NCBI GenBank assembly: GCA_019351975.1
Contig: JABBOG010000034.1
Span: 1 to 39,052 of the forward strand
Length of the DNA: 39,052 bases
Direction: 5' to 3'
Origin: Acidobacteriota bacterium
Lineage (GTDB): Bacteria > Acidobacteriota > Terriglobia > Terriglobales > Acidobacteriaceae
The stretch's first letter is position 1. Each line of letters begins with the position of its first letter. The notes under the pieces were generated by a model. That model searched no databases, was not told the DNA's origin, and saw nothing but the letters and a program-made list of their open reading frames with translations. The translations under genes and the position numbers were made by a program. This document shows, piece after piece, positions 1,792 through 28,627 of this stretch.

Positions 1792-3459
1792 CTAATCGCG
1801 AACCGCTGTCTCTTTTCTCTTCCACATCATGTACACCGGCACACCCAGCAAAACCAGAATCAACCCGGGCCATGTGTACTGAGGCTTGTATCGCAACAGT
1901 ACACCACAAATCCATACCGCCATCGCAATATATAGCGCCGGAAGCACCGGATACCCAAACGCACGGTACGGTCTCTCCGCCTCAGGACGCGTCCTCCGCA
2001 ACACAAACAGCCCAAAGATCGTCAGCACATAAAACACCAGCACCGCAAAAATTACGTAATCCAGCAGCTGCCCATAGCTTCCACTCAAACACAGCAAGCA
2101 CGTCCATCCCCACTGCATCCATAACGAATTCACCGGCGCTCCCGACCGCTCGCTCAACACCCCCGCGGGCGCGAAAAACAAACCATCCCGGCTCATCGCA
2201 TAGTACACGCGCGCCCCCGCCATCAGCATCCCGTTCACGCACCCAAACGTCGACACCAGAATCGCCGCCGCCATCAGCTTCGAGCCGATTCCTGCAAACG
2301 CCGACTGCATCACCGCCGTCGCCACCCTGTCCTCGGTCGCAAACTGGATCCCCCGCCCCGCCAGCGTCGTCGCTCCCGCCGTCCCCACCATCGGCAGCAC
2401 ACTCAGATACACAAAGTTGCACAGCACATACAGCAGCAGCACCACGCCCGTCCCCAACACCAGGCTCAGCGGCAGGTTCCTCCGCGGGTTCCGAATCTCC
2501 CCCGCCGTAAACGTCACATTGTTCCACGCATCCGAGCTGAACAGGCTTCCCACCTGCACCACCGCAATCACCGTAAAGATCCCCACATACTCCACCGGCC
2601 CGCCCACGCCCACCTGCACCGCATGCTGCGTATGCCATCCCGCATTCGCCCAGAACGAGTGCACCCCCGCTCCAAAATTCGCCGCCATCGCCGCCGCATT
2701 CTTCGCCACCAGTCCCACCGCAACGATCCCCAGCAGCGCCAGCACCTTCGCGCTCGTAAACACGTTCTGCACCGCCGCTCCCAGCTTCACGCCTCGCGTA
2801 TTGCTCAGCGTCAGCAGCGTGATGATCGCAATCGCCGCCAGGTTCGCCGTATTCAGCCCGATGTCCATATTCCCCAGCACCATCGGCCCCACCTTCCACG
2901 CCGGCACATGCCCTATATGCCACAGCCAGTGGCTCGCGCTCACGCTCGGAAAAAACACCCCCAGAAACTTCCCAAACGCCACACCCACCGCCGCAATCGT
3001 TCCCGTCTGAATCACCAGAAACAGCGTCCACCCATACAGAAATCCCCAGATCGGTCCCAGCGCTTCGCGTAGATACACATACTGCCCGCCCGCCTTCGGC
3101 ATCATCGCCGCCAGCTCCCCATAACTCAGCGCACCGATAATCGTCATCGCCGCCGTCACCAGCCACGCCGCAATCAGCAGCGCCGGAGACCCCAGCACCC
3201 GGCTCATATCCGCCGGCACAATAAAAATCCCCGACCCGATCATCGACCCCATCACAATCGCCGTCGCCGAAAATAGCCCCATACCCTGCACAAACTTCGG
3301 CGCAGCCGTTCCCGTCGGCGCATCGCTCCTCGCACCTGCACCAACGCCGCCCTCCTGAGCATCCGAACCCCGCAAAGCGCTTCCATCCTGAGCGGAGTAG
3401 CGCGCAGCCTCATCGCGGGCTTCGGAGCCGAAGGACCCCGAAAGTCTGGAACTTGCCAC
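1792..3459 (-). CDS. APC-family amino acid permease with repeat-derived N-terminal extension
   Basis: A second APC-superfamily permease, 555 residues from a GTG start. The family core begins near residue 60 (MGLFSATAIVMGSMIGSGIF, first helix with its GS/GSGIF motif) and continues through about twelve membrane helices. The PKAGGQYVYLREALGP loop is typical of the family. The first roughly 55 residues are hydrophilic, unlike the family, and residues about 7-26 are encoded by a palindromic repeat-like stretch (3384-3440). The GTG start is preceded by AGGGGTGAG about ten bases upstream. A shorter protein starting at the ATG at 3282 is a real alternative. It lies 42 bases downstream of thiE and 28 bases upstream of the next permease. 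Family assignment is firm, but substrate and exact start are not. Confidence 0.85.
   Translation of the reverse strand: MASSRLSGSFGSEARDEAARYSAQDGSALRGSDAQEGGVGAGARSDAPTGTAAPKFVQGMGLFSATAIVMGSMIGSGIFIVPADMSRVLGSPALLIAAWLVTAAMTIIGALSYGELAAMMPKAGGQYVYLREALGPIWGFLYGWTLFLVIQTGTIAAVGVAFGKFLGVFFPSVSASHWLWHIGHVPAWKVGPMVLGNMDIGLNTANLAAIAIITLLTLSNTRGVKLGAAVQNVFTSAKVLALLGIVAVGLVAKNAAAMAANFGAGVHSFWANAGWHTQHAVQVGVGGPVEYVGIFTVIAVVQVGSLFSSDAWNNVTFTAGEIRNPRRNLPLSLVLGTGVVLLLYVLCNFVYLSVLPMVGTAGATTLAGRGIQFATEDRVATAVMQSAFAGIGSKLMAAAILVSTFGCVNGMLMAGARVYYAMSRDGLFFAPAGVLSERSGAPVNSLWMQWGWTCLLCLSGSYGQLLDYVIFAVLVFYVLTIFGLFVLRRTRPEAERPYRAFGYPVLPALYIAMAVWICGVLLRYKPQYTWPGLILVLLGVPVYMMWKRKETAVRD
3384..3440. repeat. REP-like repeat copy inside permease 5' end
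   Basis: The stretch begins CATCCTGAGCGGAG and ends GAAGGACCCCG. This is the same skeleton (CATCC ... GGA/ACCC) as the intergenic repeats at 6839-6872 and 9642-9675, with a different interior. It falls inside the reading frame of the second permease and encodes part of its atypical N-terminal extension. Membership of the family is judged by eye. Confidence 0.45.
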
Positions 3460-3501: not shown

Positions 3502-4353
3502 CTATCCCAAAATCCGAAGAAAGTCTTCCGCAACCTTCCCCACCCTCTCCCCCTCCACCAGCAACCCGCTGATCACCGCCACCACATCCGCTCCCGCATC
3601 CACCACGCTCCGCGCGTTCTCCCGCGTGATCCCTCCAATTGCCACCAGCGGCTTGCGCGTCAACGCCCGAGCCCGCCGCACCCCTTCCAGCCCCACCACA
3701 GCCTCCGCATCCACCTTCGTCGTCGTCCCAAACACCGGCCCCACCGCAATGTAATCCGCGCCTCGTTCAAATCCCGCCATTCGCACATCCAGGTGCCCCA
3801 TGTCTTGCCTCTGAGACATGGGATCCGCCGCCCGCACCTGATCCTCCGTATGCGTCGAAACCCCGACCACCCACCCCAAACCATTTACCTTCCCCAAACC
3901 CAAAGCACCTGCCTTTCTTGACCCCAAAGTCCCTGCTTTTCTTTCTGTCATTCCCGATGGGAATCTGCTTTTCCCCTCGCCTGCGCTCCGGGTGCCCCAT
4001 TCATGCGCGCCTTCTGCGCATGGGTGGGGAAACATCCCATTCCCCGCCAACACCCTCCGCGCATCCACCACCCCCAAATCCCCCTGCCCCACATGCACAC
4101 CCCACCCCGCCAGCATCGCCAAATCCGCCCGGTCATTCATCACCAGCACCGCATCCACCCCCGCAAACACCTCCGAGATCACCTCTGCCCCCCGCAGCAC
4201 CTCCTCCGGCGACCCCACCTTGTCCCGATACTGCACCAGCCTCACCCCCGCATCCCTCAACTCCTCCACAAACGCTCGCAATCCCACCCCTCGCTCCGCC
4301 AGCACACCCGCATCCGCAATCGCATACAGCCTCGGCATCACCACTCTGTCCAT
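3502..4353 (-). CDS. thiE: thiamine phosphate synthase with two in-frame insertions
   Basis: ThiE joins HMP-pyrophosphate and thiazole phosphate to form thiamine phosphate in the cytoplasm. Family motifs are intact: QYRDK (41-45), MNDRAD (72-77), GVHVGQGDL (85-93), GVSTHT (164-169), GADYIAVGPVFGTTTK (198-213) and AIGGI (238-242). The protein has 283 residues, against about 205-215 for the family. The excess maps to two segments with no place in the fold: about residues 105-160 (nucleotides 3874-4041) and 178-196 (3766-3822). Both are built from palindromic repeats and their lengths (168 and 57 bases) are multiples of three. Removing them leaves about 208 residues, a normal ThiE. AGGAG directly abuts the first ATG, so a GTG at 4344 or the ATG at 4338 may be the real start. 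It probably heads an operon with the two permeases. No TPP riboswitch is visible in the 58 bases upstream. Confidence 0.9.
   Translation of the reverse strand: MDRVVMPRLYAIADAGVLAERGVGLRAFVEELRDAGVRLVQYRDKVGSPEEVLRGAEVISEVFAGVDAVLVMNDRADLAMLAGWGVHVGQGDLGVVDARRVLAGNGMFPHPCAEGAHEWGTRSAGEGKSRFPSGMTERKAGTLGSRKAGALGLGKVNGLGWVVGVSTHTEDQVRAADPMSQRQDMGHLDVRMAGFERGADYIAVGPVFGTTTKVDAEAVVGLEGVRRARALTRKPLVAIGGITRENARSVVDAGADVVAVISGLLVEGERVGKVAEDFLRILG
3797..3822. repeat. palindromic insert 2 in thiE
   Basis: CCCATGTCT and AGACATGGG form a perfect 9-bp inverted repeat with an 8-base loop. It lies inside the extra segment that separates the VSTHT loop from the GADYIAVGP motif of ThiE. On the minus strand it encodes PMSQRQDMG, which is not part of the family's conserved sequence. 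Confidence 0.75.
3935..4029. repeat. composite palindromic insert 1 in thiE
   Basis: Two palindromes lie side by side. ATTCCC-gat-GGGAAT at 3950-3964 sits in a 34-base block (3935-3968) that recurs almost exactly at 9800-9833. At 3995-4029, CCCCATTCATGCGC pairs with GCGCATGGGTGGGG over 14 positions, two of them G-T, around a 7-base loop. Beside them, at about 3899-3945, are two imperfect copies of a 22-24-base tandem unit (CCCAAAG..CTGC.TTTCTT), which read RKAG(T/A)LG in the protein. All of it is translated in frame within thiE. Confidence 0.75.
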
Positions 4354-4411: not shown

Positions 4412-5317
4412 ATGCACCTCGCCATCCTCACCCTTGGACTCTGCCTCTCGGTCGCACCCCTCCACGCCCAGACACCCGCACAGCCACAGCCCGACGCCGC
4501 CACCATCATGGCCCGCGTCGCCGCCAACCAGGACCGCTCCGCCGCTGAGCGCTCTCACTACGTCTACACGCAACACGCCCGCGTCATCTCCCGCAAAGGC
4601 AGCACCGTCCGCTGCGAAGAGATCACCGACGCCCGCATCACTCCCACCGCCACCAACTCCACCCAGCAACTCCTCAAGCTCGACGGCCGCCTCCTCGTCA
4701 AACACCACTACGTCACCTATACCCACCTCCCCGACCCCAAAGACACTGGCAACACCAACGTCGATAACGGCGACGATGACCTCTCCATCAGCATCGATGA
4801 CAACGGCACCATGGACCGCGATCTCGTCGAAAGCATGCGTGACAGCCTGATCGCTTCAAACTCCAAAGACGGTATCGCCGCAGACCTCTTTCCACTCACC
4901 ACCACAACGCAAGCCAACTACACCTTCCACCTCGTCGGCCTCGAACCCCTCAACGGCCGCCAGGTCTTCCACCTCACCTTCCAGCCCAAAAACAACTCCG
5001 GCGCCACCTGGAAAGGCGACGCCTACATCGACACCACAGCCTTCGAGCCCGTCGTCGTCCGCACCACCATGGCGCACAATATTCCCTTCGCCGTACGCAC
5101 GCTGCTCGGCACCAGCCTGCCCGGCCTCGGCTTCACCGTCGTCTACGCGCCGCAGCCTTCAGGCGTCTGGTTCCCGGTAAACTTCGGCACCGAGTTCAAA
5201 ATCCACGTCCTCTTTTTCTTCCACCGCGAGATCATCGTCAACGCCGACAACCGCGACTTCGAGCAGACCCACGTCTCCTCCACCATCCACGATGCCGCGC
5301 CCACGCCCAAAAACTAG
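4412..5317 (+). CDS. secreted protein of unknown function
   Basis: A 301-residue protein with a clear Sec signal peptide (MHLAILTLGLCLSVAPLHAQ, cleavage likely after A-x-A near residue 19). I do not recognise a named family. The mature part has a helical, charged N-terminal stretch (AATIMARVAANQDRSAAERSHYVYTQHARV) followed by beta-rich sequence with repeated threonine/valine strands. That outline recalls the LolA/outer-membrane lipoprotein-sorting fold, but it is only a resemblance. It starts 58 bases from the divergent thiE and ends convergently with accC, with a double hairpin between. Codon use matches its neighbours. The product is probably periplasmic. Confidence 0.75.
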   Translation: MHLAILTLGLCLSVAPLHAQTPAQPQPDAATIMARVAANQDRSAAERSHYVYTQHARVISRKGSTVRCEEITDARITPTATNSTQQLLKLDGRLLVKHHYVTYTHLPDPKDTGNTNVDNGDDDLSISIDDNGTMDRDLVESMRDSLIASNSKDGIAADLFPLTTTTQANYTFHLVGLEPLNGRQVFHLTFQPKNNSGATWKGDAYIDTTAFEPVVVRTTMAHNIPFAVRTLLGTSLPGLGFTVVYAPQPSGVWFPVNFGTEFKIHVLFFFHREIIVNADNRDFEQTHVSSTIHDAAPTPKN

Positions 5318-5344
5318 GGTCGTCGGAATCCATTGTCTTGAAGG

Positions 5345-5397
5345 GGACGGGCTTCAGCCCGTCCGTCAAATGCACACAACGAGGTGGCTTCAGCCAC
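5345..5397. repeat. twin hairpins with GGCTTCAGCC core
   Basis: GGACGGGCTTCAGCCCGTCC (5345-5364) and GTGGCTTCAGCCAC (5384-5397) are two perfect inverted repeats that share the core GGCTTCAGCC. They lie between the convergent secreted-protein gene and accC. They resemble bacterial REP-type elements and could terminate or protect both transcripts. Confidence 0.7.
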
Positions 5398-5438
5398 AGA
5401 GGGAATGCCTCGGGGACCCTCACAAATCTCCCTGTGAT

Positions 5439-8720: not shown

Positions 8721-9608
8721 ATGCGTCGCATTCCTTACTCCATCAGGCACCCGCAGCCCGGCTCCATGACGCGCCGCAGCTTCATCGCAGGTGCCGCCGC
8801 CGCCAGCCTCGGCTTTGCCCTCTACGCCGGCACCCACGCCCGCCACGAGTTCGAAATCACCCAAAAGACCCTCGCCATCCGCAATCTCCCCGACGGCTTC
8901 CAGGGCTTCCGCATCGTCCAGATGAGCGATATTCACCTCGAAGAGTTCACCGAAGCCTTCTTCCTCGAACGCATGGTCCATCAGGTCAACGATCTCAACC
9001 CCGACCTCGTCCTCATCACCGGTGACTTCGTCTCCCGCGGCCCCCGTCCCCACACCGTCGCCTGGAACGCCGCCGGCCTCGCCGCCGAAATCCTCTCCAC
9101 CCTCAAGGCTCCCCAGCGCCTCGGCATCCTCGGCAACCACGACGTCGCCGTCGGTGCCGATCACGTCATCGATCCCCTCGAAGCACACGGCACACCCATC
9201 CTCGTCGACAGCTACACCCCCCTCGAACGCGGAAAAGACGTCCTCTGGATCGCCGGCGCCGACGACCCCGGTACCCGCAAGCCAGACCTCAACTTCGCCA
9301 TCCCCCCCGATCCCCGCGCGCCCGTCATCTTCATGTGTCACGAGCCCGACTACGTCGATCACGTCATCCAGCACCCCCGCTTTCCGCTCATCGACGTCAT
9401 GCTCTCCGGCCACACCCATGGCGGCCAGATCCGCATCCCCTACATCGGCCCCCTCGTTCTCCCGCCCATGGGCCAGAAGTACATCGAAGGCTTCTACAAA
9501 TTCGGCCACATGCAGCTCTACGTCAACCGAGGCATCGGCACCGTCGGCGTCCCCTTCCGCCTCAACTGCCCCGCCGAACTCACCCACTTCACCCTCCAGC
9601 GCGCCTAA
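8721..9608 (+). CDS. Tat-exported metallophosphoesterase
   Basis: A calcineurin-like dimetal phosphoesterase of 295 residues, similar to the YaeI/YkuE group. Metal-binding motifs appear in order: QMSDIHLE (D-x-H), ITGDFVSRGP (GD), LGILGNHDVAVG (GNHD), FMCHEPDY and LSGHTHGGQIRIP (GHTH). The N-terminus has a twin-arginine signal (MTRRSFIAGAAAASLGFALYAG), so the enzyme should act outside the cytoplasm. The ATG at 8766 would place the RR motif immediately at the N-terminus and is a credible alternative start. No strong ribosome-binding site precedes either ATG. The natural substrate is unknown. Some family members act on phospholipid-type substrates, but nothing here shows that. Confidence 0.92.
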   Translation: MRRIPYSIRHPQPGSMTRRSFIAGAAAASLGFALYAGTHARHEFEITQKTLAIRNLPDGFQGFRIVQMSDIHLEEFTEAFFLERMVHQVNDLNPDLVLITGDFVSRGPRPHTVAWNAAGLAAEILSTLKAPQRLGILGNHDVAVGADHVIDPLEAHGTPILVDSYTPLERGKDVLWIAGADDPGTRKPDLNFAIPPDPRAPVIFMCHEPDYVDHVIQHPRFPLIDVMLSGHTHGGQIRIPYIGPLVLPPMGQKYIEGFYKFGHMQLYVNRGIGTVGVPFRLNCPAELTHFTLQRA

Positions 9609-9675: not shown

Positions 9676-9875
9676 GCTCTTGCCTTTGCCTTTGCCTTTG
9701 CATAAGTTACATAATTTAGCTTAAGTTAAGTTACACGCTGCTGTTGCTCTTGCTTTTGCGTTTGCCGTTGCTGTTGCCTTTGCTTTTGCTCTTGCCGTTG
9801 CATTTCTTTCTGTCATTCCCGCAGGGAATCTGCCCTTGCTCTCGCCGTTCCCCTTGCTCTTGCCTTTGCCCTCCC
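9671..9875. repeat. composite hexamer repeat tract with palindrome
   Basis: This holds most of the 386-base gap 9609-9994, which has no gene. Runs of the hexamer (C/T)TTGC(C/T) occur at about 9671-9702, 9737-9802 and 9831-9875. The first two runs are split by an AT-rich piece containing three TAAGTTA words. The last two are split by a 34-base block (9800-9833) with the palindrome ATTCCC-gca-GGGAAT that is also found inside thiE. Read as protein the hexamers give alternating Ala-Lys or Leu-Pro, which I take as non-coding. Confidence 0.7.
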
Positions 9876-9994
9876 TTCCGCCCTTCCCGGCCAGCAAACC
9901 CGCTCCTCCTCCCACCTAACGCCACACCCCAAAAAAATCCTTCCAACTTCTCCCCGCTTCCCATACAGTTGTCTCCATCACCACGGAGGCATCC

Positions 9995-10297
9995 ATGGAC
10001 CCATCGCAGTACAACCACATGCAAGGCATGATCGCCAGCATGATGGGCATCTTTCTCCTCATCGGCCTCGCCTTCATCGCCTTCTTCATCTTTCTCTTCT
10101 GGCGCATCCTCGACAAAGCCGGTCTCGCCGGCCCGCTCTCCCTGCTCATCCTCATCTGGCCCATCGGCCTCATCATCGTCACCTGCATCCTCGCCTTCTC
10201 CGACTGGAAGGTCATCCCCGCCGCCCAGCTCTACCCCGGCCTCCAACCCTACCCACCGCCTCCGCCCAGTTACCCTCCACCACCACCCACAGCCTGA
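9995..10297 (+). CDS. small membrane protein with proline-rich tail
   Basis: A 100-residue protein with two strongly hydrophobic segments, about residues 13-33 (MMGIFLLIGLAFIAFFIFLF) and 45-68 (LSLLILIWPIGLIIVTCILAF). The C-terminus is a tyrosine/proline-rich tail (YPPPPPSYPPPPP). The start is well supported by GGAGG six bases before the ATG. No family is recognised. The outline resembles small membrane proteins of the DUF4870/SHOCT-neighbour kind only in general shape. It is followed 44 bases later by gltX on the same strand. Confidence 0.75.
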   Translation: MDPSQYNHMQGMIASMMGIFLLIGLAFIAFFIFLFWRILDKAGLAGPLSLLILIWPIGLIIVTCILAFSDWKVIPAAQLYPGLQPYPPPPPSYPPPPPTA

Positions 10298-28550: not shown

Positions 28551-28627
28551 TGGTAGCGTTACCGGGGCTCGAACCCGGACTCTTCGCCTTGAGAGGGCGA
28601 CGTGTTAACCAGTTACACCATAACGCC
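28551..28627 (-). tRNA. tRNA-Glu (anticodon CTC)
   Basis: The reverse complement folds into a complete 77-base cloverleaf. The acceptor stem is GGCGTTA with TAACGCT, including one G-T first pair. The D stem is GTGT/ACAC and the anticodon stem is TCGCC/GGCGA with loop CTCTCAA. The variable region is AGAGT, and the T stem is CCGGG/CCCGG with loop TTCGAGC. The CCA end is encoded. Anticodon CTC reads GAG. The 3' end faces the respiratory operon. Confidence 0.96.

Follow-up and report, generated by a model that had tools for sequence, protein, structure and literature searches.

Apparent in-frame insertion of three families of small hairpin elements in the thiamin phosphate synthase gene of an acidobacterium

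In an acidobacterium from soil that belongs to the Granulicella group, the thiE gene encodes a thiamin phosphate synthase of 283 residues that contains about 55 and about 18 additional residues in two segments built from three hairpin elements. Very probably, these segments are insertions of such elements, two of which (B and C) are REP-like and come with Y1 transposase genes as probable drivers and one of which (A) represents a third family, and the enzyme presumably keeps working in their presence. A first-pass annotation of this DNA had proposed that an acidobacterial repeat family can invade coding sequence; the observation itself is confirmed and the in-frame invasion is supported, but the single family has to be replaced by three, with B and C linked to Y1 genes.

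The thiE gene and its two inserts

The window, that is, the whole stretch of 39,052 nucleotides analysed here (contig JABBOG010000034.1 of assembly GCA_019351975.1), comes from a draft genome of 3.9 Mb in 132 contigs that is 95.1% complete (hereinafter G000). The features on which the argument turns are the following.

3502..4353, minus strand: thiE, thiamin phosphate synthase, 283 aa (Pfam TMP-TENI, TIGR00693, synteny)
3877..4041, minus strand: insert 1, ~55 residues, between helix 95-103 and strand 163-167 (alignment A1, loop census, model)
3769..3822, minus strand: insert 2, ~18 residues, between helix 170-176 and strand 201-204 (alignment A1, loop census, model)
3990..4029, plus strand: element C, GGGTGCCCCATTC-ATGCGC...GCGCAT-GGG-TGGGG; coding-strand reading HPCAEGAHEWGTR
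3941..3968, minus strand: element A, GCAGATTCCC-ATC-GGGAATGACAGAAAG; coding-strand reading SRFPSGMTER
3892..3942, minus strand: spacer with an imperfect 24-nt tandem duplication (RKAGTLGS/RKAGALGL)
3791..3822, minus strand: element B, CCCATGTCTCAGAGGCAAGACATGGGGCACCT; coding-strand reading PMSQRQDMGHL
9799..9846 (core 9811-9832), minus strand: second window copy of element A, between ORFs 8721-9608 and 9995-10297

Pfam TMP-TENI matches the protein in two stretches (E=2e-40), and the thiE model TIGR00693 is the top of 12 NCBIfam matches, with a score of 132.5 bits that lies below its cut-off of 145.1. Relatives' loci have AccC upstream of ThiE in 13 of 13 cases, and 11 of 13 have a strong APC match on the downstream side. 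In coding-strand order, insert 1 begins with element C, continues with element A and ends in the spacer, and insert 2 contains element B; the lengths of both inserts are multiples of three, as had been described for segments then put at about 56 and 19 residues.

So how unusual are these segments among thiamin phosphate synthases? In an alignment of 16 sequences (A1, the window and 15 relatives), every invariant column is retained in the window protein, in agreement with the initial description of its motifs as intact, and the extra residues fall in two blocks. The loop census covered 110 loci, 91 of them parsed and 83 distinct; loop 1 consists of 23-25 residues in 78 of the 83 distinct sequences and of 79 residues in the window ThiE, and loop 2 of 18 residues in 81 of the 83 and of 36 in the window. 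With looser anchors, 13 of the 19 loci missed at first could be parsed as well (6 stayed unparsed), and these gave a loop 1 of 40 residues (G025) and 66 residues (L203) and a loop 2 of 32 residues (G016), none as long as in the window, the ThiE of which is the longest at both loops among all those parsed. The window's insert segments are absent from every other ThiE parsed (83 distinct sequences and 13 further loci, with 6 loci unparsed), and a conserved long-loop subfamily of ThiE, akin to the conservation across distant homologues that had been named at the outset as counter-evidence, is thus rejected.

Predicted fold and function of the enzyme

In the AlphaFold2 model of ThiE, 183 of the 283 residues have a pLDDT of at least 90 and the predicted barrel is intact; the best match in the PDB is ThiE 1g4s, and the best matches are ThiE structures. 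Each insert is placed between a helix and the following strand, insert 1 with a pLDDT below 50 (residues 110-157), that is, predicted to be disordered, and insert 2 with values of ~62-74. The helix-to-strand loops of such barrels lie on the side away from the active site. G000 contains one match to the window ThiE, and no second ThiE was found in this 95.1% complete genome, such as the intact thiE beside a non-functional copy that had likewise been named as counter-evidence; ThiC is present elsewhere in it. We infer from the model and the genome content that the window ThiE still functions, with the inserts as additional flexible loops. Given the intact motifs, the predicted fold, the presence of ThiC and the parallel insertions in the single-match AlaRS and TsaD (see below), the inserts appear to be tolerated, which is in line with the early suggestion that they are accommodated as surface loops.

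Three families of hairpin elements

Element A has the pattern TGTC-ATTCCC-NNN-GGGAAT-CTG, with a stem of 6 bp (ATTCCC-3-GGGAAT), a loop of 3 nt and the tail CTG, and accounts for the ATTCCC palindrome of the first-pass annotation. The genome contains 72 copies at <=2 mismatches, against 0 for the reversed-pattern control, and the loop ATC is unique to the thiE copy among the 72. The block that had been noticed in the window at a distance of 5.9 kb is another copy of element A (85% over 48 bases). Element B, with 38 genome copies at <=3 mismatches (reversed-pattern control 0), folds with 10 pairs, the perfect outer part being the 9-bp stem reported originally, and element C, previously credited with 14 pairs, folds with 15, at an energy of -26.0 kcal/mol. 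The hairpins are short and imperfect, and no inverted repeats came up between 3300 and 4500 when a repeat search was run at its default seeds.

In the stem of element B (30 distinct sequences among the 38 copies), the two pairs that the search pattern leaves unconstrained (5/22 and 6/21) co-vary, with both partners altered in 25 cells, a value reached in 0 of 500 shuffles. The flanks of the B copies are unrelated and the ends of the element are sharp, which implies that these are units that moved, not segments. Element C, which consists of a foot and the ATGCGC stem, has three exact occurrences in the genome, namely in thiE and at two sites beside the Y1 gene of contig C88; a further copy, with 1 mismatch, lies at a distance of 5 kb from this Y1 gene, and the sole dispersed copy is the one in thiE. 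Elements B and C share the foot GGGTGCCCCA. All three thiE copies (A, B and C) are variants private to thiE within G000. The elements are 28-40 bp long, are open in five of the six frames and are read in several frames. Judging by the shared foot and the flanked Y1 genes (see below), B and C are REP-like elements, and the hairpins of A, likewise dispersed, form a third family that resembles CGTC/TGTC-tagged REPs.

Among 28 genomes of the genus, the foot-hairpin pattern (8 occurrences in G000) is present in 22 and element A in 18, with controls at 0 in both searches. In contig C1 of the genome G002, the elements often occur as inverted pairs ~90-190 bp apart, in a REPIN-like arrangement.

Y1 transposase genes as candidate drivers

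There are seven Y1 transposase matches in G000. The Y1 gene of contig C88 carries C-type hairpins on its flanks, as direct repeats of 47 nt (89%), and that of C45 carries B-type hairpins, as direct repeats of 34 nt (100%); the gene of C11 has its own 67-nt direct repeat with the foot GGGTGMCCCA, and that of C77 is flanked by GGGGCTTCAGCCCC-type palindromes. The sole inverted match among the flanks in C88, C45 and C11 is 15 nt long, at C88. Thus, B and C each have a probable driver in the same genome, a Y1 gene of the RAYT or the related TIRYT kind. For element A, no driver was found in G000.

In-frame copies in other genes

In-frame copies elsewhere in the genome, a search for which had been proposed along with the original observation, turned up in 17 other ORFs of G000, which with thiE makes 18. 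For element B, 18 of the 38 copies are in frame within 14 ORFs (16 by a codon filter applied on both flanks, with SecA and PcrA/UvrD added by eye), and just over half lie outside ORFs; for element A, 6 of the 70 copies used in this test (the genome count being 72) are within 6 ORFs, two of which also carry B. The best NCBIfam names cover 16 of the 17 other ORFs, several of them below cut-off: ClpB, PolA, MutM, TlyA, XseA, SecA, LigD, TrmJ-like, Nei2, beta-aspartyl-peptidase, PcrA, a symporter/PBP4B-like frame, Tgt, MutL, TsaD and AlaRS; the frame in L130 is without a name. DNA-repair genes make up 7 of the 18 ORFs (PolA, MutM, MutL, XseA, LigD, Nei2 and PcrA/UvrD) and genes acting on tRNA or rRNA another 5 (AlaRS, TsaD, Tgt, TrmJ-like and TlyA). 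AlaRS and TsaD have one match each in G000. In Tgt (L088:158-309, contig C82), three in-frame B elements follow one another in tandem with a 60-bp period.

The codon filter is weak: of 600 random positions in each case, it passes 120 for the window, 94 for G002 and 239 for the G000 loci, which are centred on elements. Set against this last value, the 16 of 38 copies of B are placed with respect to genes about as by chance, and the 6 of 70 of A fall below chance, so that A avoids genes. In G002, a single contig of 6.2 Mb, 0 of the 93 copies examined passed the in-gene filter; these comprised 70 exact copies of A, out of 175 counted at <=1 mismatch, and 23 of the foot type, drawn from stretches up to ~1.9 Mb plus the listed foot-type places. 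By a plain length test, 30 of 49 A copies and 21 of 36 foot-type copies in G000 lie in long frames, compared with 17 of 70 and 6 of 23 in G002, and the resulting 23 of 93 in G002 were judged spurious by eye. Strong entry into genes is accordingly demonstrated for G000 alone, other genomes contributing single cases.

Loops hit in several species

The single cases concern some of the same loops. Foot-bearing inserts are present in ThiE loop 1 of three other organisms, with GGGTGCCCCA in G019, GGGTGGCCCA in G025 and GGGTGCCCCA again in L203 (the palindromes in ThiE of G019 and L203 being called by inspection of the DNA). The last of these, from Terriglobia bacterium isolate S3 (JAIQGL010000014.1), comes from outside Granulicella, and its 66-residue loop 1 (L203:3300-3460) contains GGATGGGGCACCC and GGATAGGGCACCC. 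The AlaRS loop that carries B in G000 has 103 residues with other palindromes in G016, on a contig that comes from an isolate, and a TGTC-type hairpin in G018; these palindromes were called by DNA inspection, and the folding z-scores of ten AlaRS loops range from -2.0 to +2.0. The TsaD loop has 33 residues in G000 and 20-26 in the 26 other loci scanned.

Could a broader regularity lie behind these cases? Tentatively, one REP-like family of this Granulicella lineage may no longer avoid genes, entering core genes approximately by chance and being screened only by protein tolerance, and the same loops of ThiE and AlaRS may have been colonised repeatedly by different palindromes in different species. 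We regard this generalization as plausible without calling it probable; it is strengthened by L203, where an organism outside Granulicella has a foot-bearing insert in this very loop of ThiE. If it is true, the genus would in effect be screening its core enzymes naturally for sites that take in-frame insertions, and an excess of hits in DNA-repair and tRNA/rRNA-acting genes would still call for an explanation. The shared loops also indicate where natural enzymes accept foreign peptides.

Two observations on the same proteins stand apart. For the extra residues in loop 2 of the G016 ThiE, a repeat origin is not apparent by look. The AlaRS of G000 (L136:3-2456, contig C121) has another unusual stretch of ~90 residues (RIVRQQYHEGIST...), outside the repeat families.

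A scenario for the inserts and the alternatives

The scenario that we favor, one of insertion, draws for its mechanism on the RAYT literature. Under this scenario, B and C would be non-autonomous elements, probably moved as single-stranded hairpins by a Y1 transposase that would cleave and join the single strand; each of the two Y1 genes has its own stem variant on both sides in the same orientation. Because the elements are short and five of their six frames are open, frame-preserving insertion lengthens the protein by a small peptide and brings in no stop. Copies in rigid or catalytic regions would be purged, copies that fall between a helix and the next strand, at a distance from the active site, would persist, and later elements could enter a loop that is already occupied.

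The main competing view is that thiE is decaying, that is, ThiE is no longer needed, elements accumulate and the open frame is a remnant. The concentration of three elements and a tandem duplication within one gene is compatible with decay, and so is the end branch of the window ThiE, at 0.37 against a median of 0.21, in a tree that leaves the branches of the insert carriers open and does not separate one ancestral insertion from several. However, thiE has no stop or frameshift and retains all invariant columns, the core of the protein is modelled at high confidence, the match to ThiE is single and ThiC is present. Furthermore, the same elements reside in AlaRS and TsaD, with one match each in G000, and both of these proteins are essential. 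All this makes decay an unlikely explanation.

Alternatively, the inserts might be selected features, with RNA hairpins or peptides controlling how the enzymes are expressed, assembled or localised. As RNA, the hairpins adopt stable folds, and 16 of the 18 in-gene B copies are in two of the five open frames (P 2.6e-5 under equal frames, for a pair chosen post hoc). Nevertheless, at one and the same loop the sequence and the family of the insert vary between species, insert 1 is predicted to be disordered, the genes hit vary in function and, among Rfam families, the window yields a tRNA (28554-28627) as its sole match, for which reason a riboswitch or other known structured RNA is rejected as well. 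Selection for such roles thus appears quite improbable. An assembly artefact, in which unrelated contigs had been fused at repeats or sequence had been misplaced into thiE, might be suspected in a draft of 132 contigs since assemblers fail at repeats, but is hardly credible when each thiE copy is a full-length variant seen nowhere else in G000, frame and motifs are retained through all three copies, the accC-thiE-APC neighbourhood is as in relatives save for one extra ORF, and an isolate contig (G016) has palindromes in its AlaRS.

Relation to known systems

Returning to the reading of the segments as insertions, we can ask which known elements they are most like. The REP/RAYT systems ('REPtrons'), in the parts of the two papers that bear on them, are described as short imperfect palindromes with a conserved foot that are dispersed in the genome and have stem variants matching the flanked Y1 gene, the tetranucleotide before the stem being most often GTAG and the REPs being 20-50 nt long and mostly intergenic (PMC8266576, PMC3733652). 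B and C are similar in being dispersed palindromes in this size range with a conserved foot and in the Y1 genes flanked by matching stems; they differ in the foot, GGGTGCCCCA instead of GTAG, and in the location of 18 of the 38 B copies inside genes. Repeats on the flanks of Y1 genes had been described in Acidobacteria before: the Y1 transposases of T. saanensis, K. versatilis, A. capsulatum and G. mallensis have been grouped as TIRYTs, which are described as flanked by long terminal inverted repeats (PMC3733652). Unlike these, the flanks in C88, C45 and C11 are direct repeats (47, 34 and 67 nt), with 15 nt as the longest inverted match, in a comparison made on the flanking repeats.

Element A shares with the CGTC-tagged REPs a TGTC tag and a stem that begins with AT, and differs from them in its 6-bp stem, 3-nt loop and CTG tail. 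The Neisseria dRS3 element has an ATTCCC...GGGAAT stem with a loop longer than that of element A, and it belongs to the REP class that element A resembles. In the respective passages of PMC3733652, CGTC-tagged REPs have the tag CGTC (TGTC in many), a stem of 8-9 bp that starts with AT, a loop of 4-5 nt and a tail that is mostly CCA, dRS3 is placed in CGTC-1, and the Rickettsia elements RPE-4 and RPE-6 are placed among the CGTC-tagged REPs. RPEs are presented, in the portions of the sources concerned, as palindromes that occur in frame in unrelated genes, are presumed tolerated, measure ~150 bp and encode a conserved peptide (PMC10969869, PMC2635572). The likeness to Rickettsia palindromic elements drawn by the first-pass annotation thus holds best for A, which is similar to RPE-4 and RPE-6 in tag and stem start, and in general for the in-frame location of palindromes in unrelated genes; it does not extend to the ~150-bp conserved-peptide type, given that the elements here are 28-40 bp long and are read in several frames.

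In-frame intragenic REPs are already known elsewhere, often in repair genes: GTAG and CGTC REPs have been described, single or grouped, inside genes of Opitutus terrae, Rickettsia conorii and others, with many DNA synthesis and repair genes among the REP-bearing genes of other phyla, and the phylum lists for GTAG or CGTC REPs in section 4, part 1, do not include Acidobacteria (PMC3733652). The present case differs in that three families meet in one enzyme and that tRNA/rRNA-acting genes are hit as well. The literature searches turned up no report of in-frame palindromes in genes of Acidobacteria; the RepRanger paper (PMC12306157) has Granulicella aggregans in a table, and the words 'intragenic' and 'in-frame' are absent from its available text. 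As far as this literature shows, what is new are the in-gene copies in this phylum, the other foot, the mosaic of three families in one enzyme and the loops hit by different palindromes across species. These findings bring in-frame REP-like hairpin insertion to Acidobacteriota, link B and C, among the families inserted, with transposase genes of the same genome and show AlaRS and TsaD carrying in-frame elements. The repair-gene pattern may recur independently across phyla, a possibility that becomes testable.

Other observations in the window

A plus-strand ORF (4412-5317), without an NCBIfam match, sits between accC and thiE. A search of 13 loci from relatives gave no match to this ORF; the accC-thiE spacing in these loci is ~125 nt or less in 9, ~560 nt in 2 and 1.6-1.9 kb in 2. 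At 5340-5400, 3' of this ORF, there is a palindrome, GACGGGCTTCAGCCCGTC, the reading of which, KGTGFSPS, recurs within TsaD (L132), the L051 frame and the G016 AlaRS (L255). In the APC-type transporter ORF (1792-3459), the N-terminus crosses a repeat-like stretch at 3360-3450 (tcctgagcggagtagcgcg...cgaaggacccc), and the true start of this ORF may be further in. The second copy of element A is surrounded by a simple-repeat tract of the CTTTGC/CTTGCC type (9690-9880), and similar tracts trail many copies of A.
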